This document shows positions 19,188 to 25,507 of a stretch of 64,000 nt of DNA, piece after piece. The stretch comes from Halorussus salinus (lineage in GTDB: Archaea > Halobacteriota > Halobacteria > Halobacteriales > Haladaptataceae), in NCBI RefSeq assembly GCF_004765815.2, contig NZ_ML974128.1, positions 1-64,000 on the forward strand. Direction: 5' to 3'. The number at the start of each line of letters is the position of its first letter. Position 1 is the first letter of the stretch. Position numbers and translations under genes: made by a program. The notes beneath the pieces were generated by a model. The model saw nothing but the letters and a program-made list of their open reading frames with translations, ran no database searches and had not been told where the DNA came from.

Positions 19188-19907
19188 TTAGTTGCCTCCT
19201 CGTCCCGTTCGCCGGGACGAGATGTCCCCGACCTTCCGTCCGGGCGGCGCGTTCCGCGAGACGGACTTGGGCTTGCCGGGGTGCTGGCGGCCACCGCCAC
19301 CGAACGGGTGGTCGACGGCGTTCATCGCGACGCCGCGCACGTTCGGCCACTTGGTGCCGCGCGCTTTCATCTTGTGGTACTTGTTCCCCGCTTTGACGTG
19401 GGGCTTCTCGGTCCGACCGCCACCGGCGACCACGCCGATGGTCGCTCGACAGTCGGGCGAGAGACGCTTGACCTCGCCGCTCGGAAGTTCGACGACCGCG
19501 GCGTCGCGGTCGTGGGTCACGAGGTTCGCGCTCACGCCGGAGGCGCGAGCGAACTTGCCGCCGTCGCCGGGCTGGCGCTCGACGTTACAGACCGGGACTC
19601 CTTCCGGAATCTCGGCCAGCGGCATCGTGTTGCCTTCCTTGATCTCGGCGCTGACGCCGACCTGAATGGTCTCGCCGACGCCGACGCCCTCGGGCACGAG
19701 GATGAGACGCTGGTCGCCGTCTTCGAACTCGACGGCGGCGACCGGCGCGCTCCGGGCCGGGTCGTGTTCGATGTCAACGACCGTGCCGGAGACCGTGTCC
19801 ACGTCTTCGGGCTTCTTGTGCGTGAGGTCCGCCTTGTATCGGTGCGACGGAGCGCGGAACGTCGGTCCGCCACGCCCGCGTCGCTGTCCTTGAATTCGTC
19901 GTCCCAT
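19188..19907 (-). CDS. rpl2: 50S ribosomal protein uL2
   Basis: A 239-residue protein near the peptidyl-transferase centre. It starts [20 protein letters not shown] and holds the conserved C-terminal loop [20 protein letters not shown] with the invariant His. It lies 3 nt after uL23. Confidence 0.98.
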
Positions 19908-19910
19908 GTG

Positions 19911-20162
19911 TCAGAACACCCCGATTCGGGAGGCGACTTCCTGCGCGTCGTCGTCCTCCGAGAGGGTCACCGTGGCCTTCTTGTCGCCGTTCATGGTGAC
20001 CTGCGTGTTGATCTTCTCGATGGTGACTTCGTACTGCTCCTCGATCTCGTCGCGGATCTCGGGTTTCTCGGCGTCGAGGTCCACGACGAACTGGAGCTTG
20101 TTGTCGAAGTCCATCTGGTTCATCGCCTTCTCGGTGACCCACGGGTACTCGATGACGCTCAT
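19911..20162 (-). CDS. rpl23: 50S ribosomal protein uL23
   Basis: An 83-residue exit-tunnel protein starting [20 protein letters not shown], with the C-terminal [20 protein letters not shown]. In archaea it helps dock SRP and the translocon. Its ATG overlaps the uL4 stop by 4 bp. Confidence 0.97.
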
Positions 20163-20905
20163 CGGTCGGCCACCTCCTCGAGGGCGCTCTCCGTCCAGAC
20201 GGTGAGTCGGCCGGGATGCGCGCCGGGTGCGAGGTCTTCGGCGTTGAGTTCCTGTGCGGTCGCCACGTCGGCACCCGCGAGGTTGCGGGCGGCCTTCGAG
20301 GGTTCGTCGCTGGTCACGAACAGGACCGACTTGGGCGTCTTGTACTTGCGCCCACGCGTCGTCCCGCGGCCCGCTCGGACCGACTTGTTGTCCTCGGCGC
20401 GCTCGATGTCGGCGTCCGCGCCGACCGCTTCGAGGAACGAGACGACTTCCTTGGTCTTGACGAGGTCCTCGAAGTCGTCGCTCACGACGAGCGGGAGGTC
20501 TAGCTCCTCGTCGAAGCGGTGGCCGCGCTCGGCCACGAGGTCGGCGTCGGTCGTCGCCGCGATGGCCGAGCGAACCGCCTTTTTGCGCTCCTTCGTGTTG
20601 ATGTCCTGCGAGCGGTCCTTCTCTTCTTTCGGCGGGTGGGCCTTGCGACCACCGACGGTCTGGGGCACTCGCGCGCCCTGACCGTTCGTCCGGGGGACGT
20701 GGGCCATGCCGCGACCACTGCCGGGCGACTCCGCCGAGGTTCGCATCCCGGCGTAGTCGTCCGCGCCGTAGTCCTGCTTGCGGTTTGCCTGCGCGGCGAG
20801 GACGGCGCGCTTGATGAGGTCCGGCCGGACGGTCTTGTCGAAGACATCCGGCAGGTCGAGCGTACCGTCTTCCTCGCCGTCGAGGTTGCGGATAGTTGCC
20901 TGCAT
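20159..20905 (-). CDS. rpl4: 50S ribosomal protein uL4
   Basis: A 248-residue protein. It shows [20 protein letters not shown], the long rRNA-penetrating loop ([20 protein letters not shown] and [20 protein letters not shown]), and [20 protein letters not shown]. It starts 3 nt after uL3. Confidence 0.97.
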
Positions 20906-20908
20906 AGT

Positions 20909-21925
20909 TTATCCTTGGTTGGATTCGGTGCTTACGTAGCGCACCTCGGGGTCGAGGCGCGGCTGGTCTTTCGGCCGGATGGCCGGGCGGAAACGCAGGA
21001 GCCGCTTGTCGGGACCGGGGGCCGACCCCTTGACCAGCGCGTAGGAACCGTCGACTTCGCCGTAGTTGACGAAGCCGCCGTCGACGTTGATGTCGTCGCC
21101 CTCACCGATGTCGATGAGGCGCTTGTTGAGTTCGGTGCGCTGGTGGTAGCCGGTCTGGCCCTGTTGGGGCACCGTCGAGCGGACGCGGGACGGGTTCCAC
21201 GGACCGAGGTTGCCGATGCGTCGGCGCCATCCCTGACGGGCGTGCTTGCCCTTCCGCTTCTGGACGCCCCATCGCTTGACGGGACCCTGCGTGCCTTTAC
21301 CTTTCGTGACACCGCTGATGTCGGTGTACTCCCCTGCGCGGAACACGTCGTTCATGTCGTGTTCCCCGCCGTCTTCGAGGAGGTCCAGTCCGAAGTCGGC
21401 GCGGTCGTCGAGCGACCCGCCACCGACGCGAGTCTCCATCACGTCGGGCTTCTTCTTCGGGACACTGGGCACCTCGTCGGGGACGGTGTGGGTGACGACC
21501 CGAAGGTCGGCGACGTTGCCGTCTTCGAGCGCCGCGCGAAGTTCGTCCTCGGCGGCGTCCGGGTCGTGGTCCTCCGGCACGTCGAGCGTGCGCGAGAGGT
21601 GGTCGTGGAAGTCGTCGCCCCACACTTCCGTCAGCGGCTTCTTGCCGTACGGCGTGTCTTCGTAGGCTCGCAGAGCGACCGCTCGCATCGGCGGCGTCTC
21701 CACGATGGTGACGGGAACGGTCTCCTCCATCCCCTCTCGCGGGGAGTCGGATTCGTCGTTCACCATCACCACGTGGGTCATGCCTGCCTTGTAACCCGCG
21801 AAGCCCTGAAGGGACGGATTTCCGTCGCCGTCGGGCCACGAGTTGAAGCGCGGCACCTCACTGGTCGCGCGCTGGCGGGGGCCGAACCCTAGCGAACCTT
21901 TACGTGGTCTGCTTGTTTCTGGCAT
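20909..21925 (-). CDS. rpl3: 50S ribosomal protein uL3
   Basis: A 338-residue archaeal uL3. It begins MPETSRPRKGSLGFGPRQRA and includes FAGYKAGMTHVVMVNDESDS, then GVTKGKGTQGPVKRWGVQKR and RKGKHARQGWRRRIGNLGPW. It is the first ribosomal gene of the S10 cluster, 4 nt downstream of the SPOUT methyltransferase gene. Confidence 0.98.
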   Translation of the reverse strand: MPETSRPRKGSLGFGPRQRATSEVPRFNSWPDGDGNPSLQGFAGYKAGMTHVVMVNDESDSPREGMEETVPVTIVETPPMRAVALRAYEDTPYGKKPLTEVWGDDFHDHLSRTLDVPEDHDPDAAEDELRAALEDGNVADLRVVTHTVPDEVPSVPKKKPDVMETRVGGGSLDDRADFGLDLLEDGGEHDMNDVFRAGEYTDISGVTKGKGTQGPVKRWGVQKRKGKHARQGWRRRIGNLGPWNPSRVRSTVPQQGQTGYHQRTELNKRLIDIGEGDDINVDGGFVNYGEVDGSYALVKGSAPGPDKRLLRFRPAIRPKDQPRLDPEVRYVSTESNQG

Positions 21926-21929
21926 CGTA

Positions 21930-22820
21930 TCACTTCTCTTTGAGGTTCAGGCAGCCGAGGGCGGCGAACATCGCTTCTTCAGTTCGCACGACCCCGCTGC
22001 CTTGATTCGGAACCGCGTTCAGCCAGAGGTCGAACCGGCCGGGTGCGCCGTGTTCGACTCCGGACTCCGCGTCCGCCTCGTCCTCCTCGTCGTCGCCGAG
22101 CCATCGGTCGGCCAGCGAGTCGGTCGGGAGGTCGAGCATCTCCGGCAGGCCACGGCCCGGTGAACCGAACGCCACGGTCATACCGTCGCGTTCGACGCGG
22201 CCGACCAGTGGGGTCAGCCGCCGGGTCGTCAACTCGACCCCGTGGCGGGACGTTCCGATTCGAACGCCCGCGTCGTCGCGGTCGAGTGCCGCCGGAAGGT
22301 CCGTGCGCGTCACCGACCAACCCGAAGGGGGTTGGTCTACGAGTTTCGCACGGACCGGACTTCGCGAAGAGATCCTGACGGTAACGCGCTCCCCCTCGCC
22401 GACCTCCATTTCTGGCGGTACGACGAGGGAGATCGGGTGTTGCAGTCCGCAATTGACCCGAACGCGCCCTTCAGGTCCGACCTCGGTCACGATTCCCTGT
22501 CTTAACGACCCCGAACCCTCGGATTCGGAGCCGGTCAGTGAGGGGGCACGGAGCGGCGGTAGGATGCCCGCGTACTCCAGTTCGTCCCGCTTGCCGAATA
22601 CCTCCTTTCGGAGGTAGGGCGGCGTCGCGGCGTATTCCAGCACGGTGCTTACGAACCCGCCACCCCATCGCCGTTCGCCGTCGGGGTCCGGAAAGACCAC
22701 GAGGCGATCGGCCCGGAACACCGTCGCCGCACGGGCGACGTAGCCGATTTTGCGAGTTGCCTCGCGTTTGTCCTCGGCTTCCCGGACGAGGGATGACGGA
22801 ACGAGTACGCTGACGGTCAT
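21930..22820 (-). CDS. SPOUT RNA methyltransferase (SPOUT1/DUF171 family)
   Basis: A 296-residue enzyme of the SPOUT class, which methylates RNA using a trefoil-knotted SAM-binding fold; related proteins modify rRNA uridines. The N-terminal segment is VSVLVPSSLVREAEDKREAT. A middle OB-like insert contains GIVTEVGPEGRVRVNCGLQH. The knot region holds VAFGSPGRGLPEML and FDLWLNAVPNQGSGVVRTEE with AMFAALGCLNLKE. It leads the ribosomal operon, directly before uL3, the usual haloarchaeal arrangement, so it is made along with ribosomal proteins. Confidence 0.88.
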   Translation of the reverse strand: MTVSVLVPSSLVREAEDKREATRKIGYVARAATVFRADRLVVFPDPDGERRWGGGFVSTVLEYAATPPYLRKEVFGKRDELEYAGILPPLRAPSLTGSESEGSGSLRQGIVTEVGPEGRVRVNCGLQHPISLVVPPEMEVGEGERVTVRISSRSPVRAKLVDQPPSGWSVTRTDLPAALDRDDAGVRIGTSRHGVELTTRRLTPLVGRVERDGMTVAFGSPGRGLPEMLDLPTDSLADRWLGDDEEDEADAESGVEHGAPGRFDLWLNAVPNQGSGVVRTEEAMFAALGCLNLKEK

Positions 22821-23033: not shown

Positions 23034-23104
23034 GCGCTGGTAGTGTAGTGGTATCACGTGACCTTGCCATGGTCGCAACCGGGGTTCAAATCCCCGCCAG
23101 CGCA
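23034..23104 (+). tRNA. tRNA-Gly (GCC)
   Basis: A 71-nt tRNA without intron or encoded CCA. The acceptor stem gcgctgg pairs with ccagcgc. The anticodon arm tgacc-ttgccat-ggtcg gives anticodon GCC. The T arm is ccggg-gttcaaa-tcccc in loose form, and the discriminator is A. It lies between the ribosomal operon and the peptide-modification cassette; tRNA genes are frequent integration sites, but no duplicated 3' end was seen nearby. Confidence 0.95.
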
Positions 23105-23226
23105 CTTCTCTCGGACGTAAACTGCCGAAGAGTACCGTTGCCGTTTGACACCGTCTACTTTCGTGTCGAGACCAGTGACGTATCGGTAGCCAAACTTACT
23201 TACACCTCGTTCGCCACCACACTAAT

Positions 23227-24165
23227 ATGGTCGTGGTACTTGCTGGCACTACCTCCAGTCCAGAGACGAACCACGTGGCTGACGCCGTAGAGTCTCGGGG
23301 TGGCACGGTGGTTCTGTGCGACGCGAGCGACTTTCCGGGAGGAGCGATTTCGGTTTCCCCCGGCGGCGAAACGACTGTTCTCGGCTCGTCGTTCGCCTAC
23401 GACGACGTAGAGGGTGCATACTTCCATTCGCAGGCGCTTTTCCGGCCCGAGTATCGGCTTCACGAGGTCGAAGACGACCCGGTGGCGACGCTCAATCGGT
23501 GGCAGGACCACCGAAGCTTGTTCAAGAGCCTGTGTCGGTCGTTCGAATCGAGGGGTATCGACGTACTTCCGCGACTGCACAACCACTACATGCAGGAGAT
23601 GAAGCCGTGGCAACTCGAACGCTGTGCGAACCGCGGCGTTCCGGTGCCCGACACGATCTTCACTAACAGCCCCGAGGAGGTCCGGCGGTTCTACGAACGC
23701 CACGACCGAGTCGTCTACAAGCCGGTCTCCCACGGAGCGCCGCCGAACGAGCTTACCGACGACGACCTGACCGACCAGCGACTCGAAAAGCTGGCGACCG
23801 CACCGGTACAGCTTCAGGAGTTCGTCCGGGGCGACGACCTTCGATTGTACGTCCTCGACGGCGATGTCGTCGGTGCGACCCGATACGTCAGCGAGAACTT
23901 CTCGTTCAAACTCGACCAGCGCGAATCCAAGGCGGTCGACCTCGAACCGGCGACGGTGTCCGAGGAAGTCGAATCGGCCGCGATTCGGGCGGCCGAAGCC
24001 GTCGAGTTGCAGTTCGGTGCAGTGGACGTTCGTCGGTCGGATTCGGAGTACGCGGTACTCGAAGTGAACCAGTCGCCAGCTTTGGCGGCCGCCGACATCC
24101 GAGCGGACCAGACGGTCGGTGACGCGGTTGCCGAATACTTACTCGACTCCGAGGGCGGTGTATGA
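23227..24165 (+). CDS. RimK/MvdD-type ATP-grasp ligase, likely peptide-modifying
   Basis: A 312-residue ATP-grasp enzyme. The N-terminal preATP-grasp region begins MVVVLAGTTSSPETNHVADA. The ATP-binding lysine is in HDRVVYKPVSHG. The grip strand is APVQLQEFVRGDDLRLYVLD, and the metal-binding Glu and Asn are in EYAVLEVNQSPALAAAD. The layout resembles RimK and the ligases that make ester or amide cross-links in graspetides (MvdC/MvdD) or act on small peptides. The stop overlaps the next start by 4 bp (ATGA), so it is in one operon with the M50 protease. With the convergent 36-residue peptide gene it suggests a RiPP-like system; the substrate is inferred. Confidence 0.78.
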   Translation: MVVVLAGTTSSPETNHVADAVESRGGTVVLCDASDFPGGAISVSPGGETTVLGSSFAYDDVEGAYFHSQALFRPEYRLHEVEDDPVATLNRWQDHRSLFKSLCRSFESRGIDVLPRLHNHYMQEMKPWQLERCANRGVPVPDTIFTNSPEEVRRFYERHDRVVYKPVSHGAPPNELTDDDLTDQRLEKLATAPVQLQEFVRGDDLRLYVLDGDVVGATRYVSENFSFKLDQRESKAVDLEPATVSEEVESAAIRAAEAVELQFGAVDVRRSDSEYAVLEVNQSPALAAADIRADQTVGDAVAEYLLDSEGGV

Positions 24166-25136
24166 GGACCGAAACCCAGCGCCCCGACCCGGCGGTCGGG
24201 TACACGTGGGGCGAGTCAGACGGGTCGTACTTCGTTCGGAACCCCGACGGCGATTTCAGGCAGGTATCGGAGAACGCGATGAAGTTACTCGAGGCACTCG
24301 CGGACGGTGAGATGACGACGGACGACCTCGACGGTGGCGCACTACGACTGGCCGAGCGACTGGAGGACGAAGGGTACTTCGGCCCGAACCGTCCGGTCGA
24401 ACGAATCGTCACGCCGTCGGATATCGCGCTGTGGCCTCGTTCGGTGCTGTTTTTCATCTTGTTCGGCGTCGTGGCGTACACCGTCCTGCCAGCGGTGTCG
24501 TCCCTTGGGACCCTCTCTACTCGGCTGTCGCCTTCGAGAGTCGTGACCGTCGGCGGGTTGCTTTTGACGGGTGTCGCGGTTCACGAGAGCGGCCATCACT
24601 TGGCGGCCCGTGAGTATCTCGACCCGTCGTTTCGCATCCAGCGGGTCAACGGCGTCATCCCGACGGTTACTACGAACACTAGCGGCGCGTGGATACTCCC
24701 GAAGAACCGCCGTCGGTGGATCAGTCTGGCCGGGCCGTTCGCCGAACTCCTCTGGGTTCTCGGCGTCGTCGTGTACGACGCGTTCTTGCCCGCGAGTACT
24801 GCACTCGAACTGTATCTCGTCGCCGCTCTCACGGGGTTCGCGTTCACGCTCAACCCCCTCATTCACGGCGACGGCTACTGGCTGTTGGTCGATACCTTTG
24901 GCGTCGTGAACCTCCGAAAGCGAGGACTCCATGACCTCGAGAAACCGAAACTCTCGCTGGCGGCGACGTACGTTGCCGTCTCCTATCTGTTCGGTATCGG
25001 GACGTTCGTCGCGTCCGTCGTCGGCGCGGTCTACGCGTTCGGCCCGAAAGGACTCGTCCCGATCTCGATTCTGCTCGGCGTGACGCTCCTCGACGGGGAC
25101 CGCGTCCGAACGCTGTTCGAGGCGGTCGCTAGCTGA
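24162..25136 (+). CDS. Membrane M50-type metalloprotease with N-terminal PqqD-like domain
   Basis: A 324-residue protein. Residues 15-78 resemble PqqD/RRE peptide-recognition domains (SDGSYFVRNPDGDFRQVSEN, AMKLLEALADGEMTTDDL, ERLEDEGYF). The rest is membrane-embedded, with about six hydrophobic segments. The zinc motif HESGH is at residues 141-145 (TGVAVHESGHHLAAREYL). The second M50 motif is NPLIHGDGYWLLVD (231-244), which replaces the usual NxxPxxxLDG-type motif. Site-2-type proteases cut within or beside the membrane; an RRE-like domain would bring a precursor peptide to it. Translationally coupled to the ATP-grasp gene; likely cleaves or exports the modified peptide. Confidence 0.75.
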   Translation: MRTETQRPDPAVGYTWGESDGSYFVRNPDGDFRQVSENAMKLLEALADGEMTTDDLDGGALRLAERLEDEGYFGPNRPVERIVTPSDIALWPRSVLFFILFGVVAYTVLPAVSSLGTLSTRLSPSRVVTVGGLLLTGVAVHESGHHLAAREYLDPSFRIQRVNGVIPTVTTNTSGAWILPKNRRRWISLAGPFAELLWVLGVVVYDAFLPASTALELYLVAALTGFAFTLNPLIHGDGYWLLVDTFGVVNLRKRGLHDLEKPKLSLAATYVAVSYLFGIGTFVASVVGAVYAFGPKGLVPISILLGVTLLDGDRVRTLFEAVAS

Positions 25137-25218
25137 TTGGCGTTCGACGACGTTACGGGGTCGCTCGCTGTCGAAGAAATCGAACCGGAAACGCGATTCA
25201 CTCCGGGAAGAACGCGGA

Positions 25219-25329
25219 TTACGCCCCGAAGTAGACGTTACCCATTACGCCCGTAAGCGCGGGGTTGTCTCGCTCTTCGAGTTCGGCCGAATCGGTCTCG
25301 TCTAGTTCCTCGATGAAGTGGTCTGTCAT
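25219..25329 (-). CDS. 36-residue candidate precursor peptide of the ATP-grasp/M50 cassette
   Basis: A 37-codon frame on the minus strand, convergent with the M50 gene and 82 bp from its stop. Residues 1-21 are strongly acidic (MTDHFIEELDETDSAELEER then D), and residues 22-36 are nearly uncharged (NPALTGVMGNVYFGA). This acidic leader plus hydrophobic, glycine-containing core is the usual plan of RiPP precursors. A TATA-like aatttaag lies 32-39 bp before the ATG, so the mRNA would be nearly leaderless. An in-frame upstream start is ruled out by a stop. There is no Lys or Cys; Thr26, Tyr33 and the C-terminal carboxylate are the only evident core targets. Its link to the enzymes is inferred from position. 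Confidence 0.55.
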   Translation of the reverse strand: MTDHFIEELDETDSAELEERDNPALTGVMGNVYFGA

Positions 25330-25360
25330 GTCTACACATACCTATAGCACCATGCGTACA

Positions 25361-25368
25361 CTTAAATT
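25361..25368 (-). promoter_or_regulatory. TATA box of the candidate precursor gene
   Basis: The minus-strand octamer aatttaag ends 32 bp before the ATG at 25329. With a start site 24-26 bp downstream, transcription would begin within about 8 nt of the ATG, typical for haloarchaeal leaderless mRNAs. The peptide thus appears to have its own promoter, separate from the enzyme operon. Confidence 0.5.
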
Positions 25369-25507
25369 CTTCGTGAATTAACGATGCGCGGTGCTGATTT
25401 CCGAACAGAAACGCGACAGCGTAAACGACGGAACGGCCGTCCAGTGAGAGCCGTGGAGCGAAGCGTCCCAAACGCCAAAGACACTACCGGCCCTCTATCC
25501 GCTCGCT

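Follow-up and report, generated by a model that had tools for sequence, protein, structure and literature searches.

A probable graspetide-type minimal RiPP cassette in haloarchaea, with a divergent copy in Halorussus salinus

Gene clusters for group 2 (plesiocin-type) graspetides are often accompanied by NHLM peptidase-transporters (PMC13097080), and for many graspetides the leader protease is unidentified (PMC13039773). In daptide biosynthesis the leader is removed by MpaP, an intramembrane site-2 protease with an N-terminally fused RRE (PMC10036551), the M50 protease of the epipeptides (EpeP/YydH) has been proposed to cleave the peptide and perhaps to carry it out of the cell (PMC10885120), and in the TMcins the leader is removed by TmcP, a membrane protease of the site-2 clan (PMC13252029). 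The haloarchaeal cassette described here resembles the plesiocin type in the fold and sequence of its ligase (PsnB is the best match in the PDB), in the TTxxxxEE-like cores of one of its clades and in a ring spacing of five. It differs from that type in its archaeal host, in having a single short core rather than repeats and, for the copy studied here, in a ligase branch without the DxR motif and a precursor without acidic core residues; it has a dedicated RRE-S2P protease in place of the peptidase-transporters often seen with group 2 clusters. It shares the protease architecture of the daptides but lacks the enzymes for C-terminal oxidative decarboxylation, transamination and dimethylation, with an ATP-grasp protein instead, and its cores have no terminal Thr. 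Like the epipeptide systems it is compact and includes an M50 protease in the membrane, but there is no radical SAM epimerase and the protease match is weak. Finally, the TMcins rely on a site-2-clan membrane protease for leader removal, as is proposed here for the haloarchaeal cassette, but a transmembrane helix is part of the TMcin precursor, an ATP-grasp ligase has not been reported for them, and genes for an ABC transporter and a DsbA-like protein belong to their clusters.

The window, a stretch of 64,000 nucleotides of H. salinus (contig NZ_ML974128.1), contains a minimal RiPP cassette consisting of a ligase gene, a protease gene and a 36-residue ORF. The ATP-grasp ligase gene (23227..24165, plus strand) encodes a PsnB-like, graspetide-type protein of 312 aa that belongs to a divergent branch (clades A, B and C, see below) and has S226-F-K228 in place of DxR. 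It overlaps by 4 bp (ATGA) with the membrane-protease gene (24162..25136, plus strand), the product of which (324 aa) carries an RRE (PqqD-like) domain at about residues 13-82, fused to an M50/site-2-type intramembrane zinc protease. The precursor peptide gene lies on the minus strand (25219..25329), starts with ATG and encodes 36 aa (MTDHFIEELDETDSAELEERDNPALTGVMGNVYFGA), divided into the leader MTDHFIEELDETDSAELEERDN and the core PALTGVMGNVYFGA; a TATA-like box, TTTAA (25362..25366, minus strand), starts 37 nt upstream of the ATG. An earlier sequence-only reading of the locus had described the 4 bp overlap, the HESGH and GDG...D motifs and the 36-residue frame on the other strand, all of which were confirmed. 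It had also given the peptide frame a TATA box of its own; 14 of the 24 relatives inspected have a similar box 32-38 nt upstream of the ATG. The cassette sits just past a cluster of ribosomal-protein genes on the minus strand (about 19900-22820), and a tRNA-Gly(gcc) gene (23034-23105) is found immediately upstream. A tRNA-linked integration site was considered and rejected, as the tRNA-Gly has no counterpart at most of the other loci.

With the protease as query, 17 of 392 genomes of the order were found to contain a homolog, and family-level searches extended the protease set to 26 loci in 24 haloarchaeal genomes, including those of Halorussus, Halocatena, Halopiger, Halovivax and Natronolimnohabitans. 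The cassette is complete, with ligase, protease and precursor, at 25 of the 26 loci, the homologous ATP-grasp gene adjoining the protease gene or lying within about 1 kb of it. The peptide frame is thus conserved near the enzyme pair, and the proposal of a compact haloarchaeal RiPP-type cassette holds for the family; the convergent orientation of the peptide gene does not generalise, since its placement relative to the ligase/protease pair differs among loci. The odd locus (L067; C12, 3500-6020) is in an incomplete MAG and has an RRE-M50 protease without ligase or precursor. That protease is flanked by genes for an ABC transporter ATPase and an ABC-2 permease, and the locus possibly represents another peptide system. 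Two genomes carry two copies, one of them being the window's own, where the second cassette (contig C2:398357-400541; L021, L073) has the core TIVVSCHVIDVQ, with a Ser-to-Asp distance of 5, and belongs to clade B. The organism therefore encodes two different peptides; a profile search of its own genome revealed no third precursor copy. In 20 neighbourhoods no conserved gene was found beside the ligase and protease genes, local synteny aside, and no conserved exporter or immunity gene. Two relatives are located on large haloarchaeal plasmids. In the gene tables distributed with the two plasmid records examined the peptide genes are unannotated, as is a clade D precursor gene (NZ_CP096022.1:29008-29094, core TTMAMGEE) on a Halocatena salina plasmid. 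Viral carriage was also considered and rejected: the protein search returned no phage record and one IMG/VR scan with the ligase was empty.

All 25 ligase/protease pairs are accompanied by a small ORF of one N-terminal plan, H/T-[FYLV]-[IV]-[EGD]-x-L ... E-x-R-x-[NQS]-[TAP]. The acidic N-terminal part (HFIEEL...EER-x-N) is common to the family, whereas the part after it is hypervariable both in sequence and in length (9-29 residues), which is the signature of a leader and a core. The conservation is therefore opposite to the one expected earlier, when a conserved C-terminal pattern (G-x-M-G-N-x-Y-F) had been proposed; this pattern occurs in no relative. The PsnA leader is LFIEDL-like; searching the PDB with the precursor sequences brought up no PsnA chain. 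A strict form of the leader pattern has a single match in the 64 kb window, the 36-residue ORF itself, and no match away from such cassettes in the about 500 kb of other DNA around the fetched loci that served as background. The pattern, which was written from the family, misses two clade B peptides and is therefore conservative. The own-genome profile search recovers the window precursor at an E-value of 4.7e-13. Across nine pairs of related precursors, 102 substitutions fall on third codon positions, 43 on first and 28 on second positions; by this measure the ORF evolves like coding sequence. The specificity of the leader pattern and the coding pattern of substitution led us to reject a chance ORF. 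CxxxC pairs (CPLSC, CIAYC, CPEKC) recur in cores across clades (L006, L007 and the clade D cores of L011, L014-L016 and L072), so that a disulfide may add to a ring or replace it.

The ligase is generically labelled RimK-like by Pfam. The graspetide maturase model TIGR04187 matches all 17 members scanned, the window protein scoring below its curated cut-off, and RimK-family models likewise match every member scanned. The family profile ranks PsnB, the plesiocin ligase (7DRM), first in the PDB at 1.4e-72; other graspetide ligases come next (about 1e-25), and RimK reaches 5e-16. The haloarchaeal ligases share only 27-36% identity with PsnB. The AlphaFold2 model (mean pLDDT 88.7) gives the same first match in a fold search (7DRP, 1.4e-25; next graspetide ligase 1e-17), and LysX (6e-17) and RimK (about 7e-16) come after these. 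Residues K165, R206, D267, E279 and N281 are invariant, those for ATP and Mg (K165, D267, E279 and N281) being so in the main ligases. Within its own genome the window ligase scores 440 bits, and none of the other ATP-grasp proteins, the RimK-like paralogues among them, exceeds 67. Given the first rank of PsnB and the low scores of the paralogues, the window ligase is a member of the graspetide family, far from small-molecule ligases such as glutathione ligases, LysX and MptN, and does not group with a glutathione or cofactor ligase. That the locus consists of a small-molecule ligase beside an unrelated protease and a chance ORF is hardly credible: the generic RimK-like Pfam domain is all that speaks for it, against the much closer relationship to graspetide ligases, the leader conserved at 25 loci, the third-position bias and the zero background matches.

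The protease has the metal motifs H141-E-S-G-H145 and G236-D-G (236-238) ... D244. Its model (AlphaFold2, pLDDT 88.1) shows an N-terminal beta-beta-beta-alpha-alpha domain followed by membrane helices, with SpoIVFB as the sole S2P match in the PDB (probability 1.00, at a modest E-value of 0.003). The N-terminus alone aligns weakly with PqqD (hhalign, 0.003). When compared with archaeal PqqD-M50 proteins, in which Pfam recognises PqqD at the N-terminus, the protease family aligns end-to-end (hhalign, residues 18-289, 4e-23). This match supports the architecture that had been read from the sequence, with an M50/site-2 protease that carries a PqqD-like/RRE domain at its N-terminus. Among curated models, the NCBIfam entry daptide_HExxH matches 17 of 17 members (best 3.2e-21; window protease 7.5e-11, at 41.8 bits against a curated cut-off of 300), and the YydH/LiaK models match more weakly (window protein 0.0072). 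These best matches could be taken to mean that the RRE-protease is the key enzyme of a daptide- or epipeptide-like pathway and that the ATP-grasp protein is accessory. We consider this very improbable, as an ATP-grasp gene is present at 25 of the 26 loci, the cores have no terminal Thr and no conserved aminotransferase, alcohol dehydrogenase, methyltransferase or radical SAM gene was found at 20 loci; membership of either class was rejected on the absence of the partner genes.

In the ligase tree all haloarchaeal ligases fall together with modest support (84/73), and comprise clade D (12 loci) and a derived group of clades A, B and C, which stands on a long stem with full support (100/100). 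The cores of clade D resemble that of plesiocin (TTMAMGEE, TTLALGEE, TTLAVGEE or TTxxxGEC, including TTMATGEC), the outer Glu of TTxxxxEE being replaced by Cys in some of them, and all 12 clade D ligases keep DxR, as D-Y-R. By the sequence criteria tested, clade D is canonically graspetide-like. The sequence-only reading had noted that a classical graspetide pattern was missing; this is correct for the window peptide, which has no TTxxxxEE-like core (the group 2 feature), but not for the family. Over all clades, 21 of the 25 cores have a Ser/Thr followed by an Asp/Glu at +5, compared with a mean of 7.8 in shuffled cores (reached in none of 2000 shuffles), and in clades B and C, which lack TTxxxxEE, the same spacing is present in 7 of 7 precursors (none of 5000 shuffles). 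Since these shuffles treat related sequences as independent, their significance is somewhat overstated, but clades B, C and D still agree. The distance of 5 is that between Thr2 and Glu7 of TTxxxxEE, so that for most of the family one or more ester rings of the plesiocin type are predicted.

We therefore consider it probable that the family represents a graspetide-type minimal RiPP cassette, in which the ligase forms a ring and RRE-guided site-2 cleavage at the membrane follows. The computation shows which genes are present, their homology, the conserved leader, the spacing in the relatives and the loss of the motif; from these we infer all chemical steps, their order, a cleavage site, a mode of release and a function. 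The 36-residue precursor would be translated from its own gene and its acidic helical leader (HFIEEL...EER) would dock on the ATP-grasp ligase. The ligase would then activate a carboxylate with ATP as an acyl phosphate, and attack by a core Ser/Thr would close the ring with loss of water, the ring predicted for clade D being the inner one of plesiocin, Thr(i)-Glu(i+5). Subsequently, the RRE domain of the membrane protease would hold the leader while its zinc centre, of the site-2 type, cleaves the peptide at the membrane close to where leader and core meet, with the conserved R-x-[NQS]-[TAP] stretch as a candidate cut region, and the peptide would exit without a dedicated transporter. The product is possibly a protease inhibitor or a signal.

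The clades other than D differ from it in their ligases. DxR is present in all the aligned references PsnB, MdnB, MdnC, CdnC, TgmB and PruB and in a RimK-like paralogue, whereas in all 15 ligases of the A+B+C group it is replaced by [ST]-x-[KQ]. To judge from the motif, its loss could mean a changed reaction or lost activity; the persistence of the +5 spacing in the DxR-less clades B and C suggests that ring formation continues in this branch. Within clade A, four of the six cores are acid-free: the window core PALTGVMGNVYFGA, which ends in Ala, TVVSTPITWFGG, TRVTCPLSC and TYYTGGCIAYC, all four of which keep a Ser/Thr at core position 4. Since DxR was lost only once on the tree, the pattern suggests, but does not prove, that motif and core are linked. 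The window copy thus has neither an acidic core residue nor DxR, and we regard it as a divergent variant rather than filing it as a member of the graspetides. The clade C loci (L083:2688-3644, L084:7543-8733) encode a second, tandem ATP-grasp protein, perhaps an inactive partner, in which the ATP-binding Lys is replaced by Gln.

The window core has neither Asp nor Glu, so the linkage that defines graspetides cannot arise within it. For the window copy the most likely donor would be Thr26 and the most likely acceptor the C-terminal carboxylate, giving a side-chain-to-tail macrolactone; this acceptor is favoured by the acid-free core together with the loss of DxR from the ligase, and Asp21 would be a less likely one. 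In its general form, the proposal is that a graspetide ligase of the A+B+C branch has, in copies such as this one, switched its acceptor to the C-terminal carboxylate (or another non-Asp/Glu group), with release of the tail-to-side-chain macrolactone by the RRE-site-2 protease. We rate it as unlikely, and know of no precedent for a tail ring among graspetides. If true, the switch would provide an archaeal analogue of the autoinducing-peptide pheromones, made by ATP-grasp chemistry.

The same acid-free cores, lost DxR and intact ATP/Mg residues, together with the matches of RimK-family models, would also fit ligases in the A+B+C group that tag the peptide in a RimK-like manner, linking one of its carboxylates (the C-terminus or a leader Glu) to a free amino acid or amine without cyclisation, after which the site-2 protease would release a pheromone-like signal. 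Such tagging is improbable: cyclising ligases of the PsnB type are by far the nearest relatives, the RimK-like paralogue itself retains DxR, and Ser/Thr-x4-Asp/Glu is kept in every clade B and C precursor. Likewise improbable is a ring that reaches into the leader, in which Asp21, just before the core, is joined acid first, with reversed polarity, to Thr26 in a side-chain ester. The spacing is again 5, as it is between Glu20 and Thr25 in the Halorussus amylolyticus relative (L007), but in the acid-free relatives L005 and L006 this position is occupied by Thr or Lys, and in plesiocin, thuringinin and microviridin it is always the nucleophile that comes first and the acid that follows (PMC7823629).

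A graspetide-type cassette is apparently undescribed in archaea. No description of archaeal graspetides was found in the open-access literature, and the archaeal surveys covered do not mention graspetides, the characterised archaeal RiPPs being mainly lanthipeptides; we do not claim priority. The linkage chemistry in the branch of the window copy may be new. The family offers a compact three-gene archaeal system with a dedicated leader protease that is open to test. Moreover, its clades form a natural series, from canonical cores with DxR (D) via the spacing without DxR (B and C) to the acid-free part of A, which makes the choice of carboxylate by a graspetide ligase directly testable.

Longer PqqD-M50 fusion proteins were observed in non-haloarchaeal archaea (L034-L037), and in one case (L036) the fusion gene adjoins a gene for a radical SAM/SPASM-like protein. 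These fusions suggest further undescribed archaeal RiPP loci.
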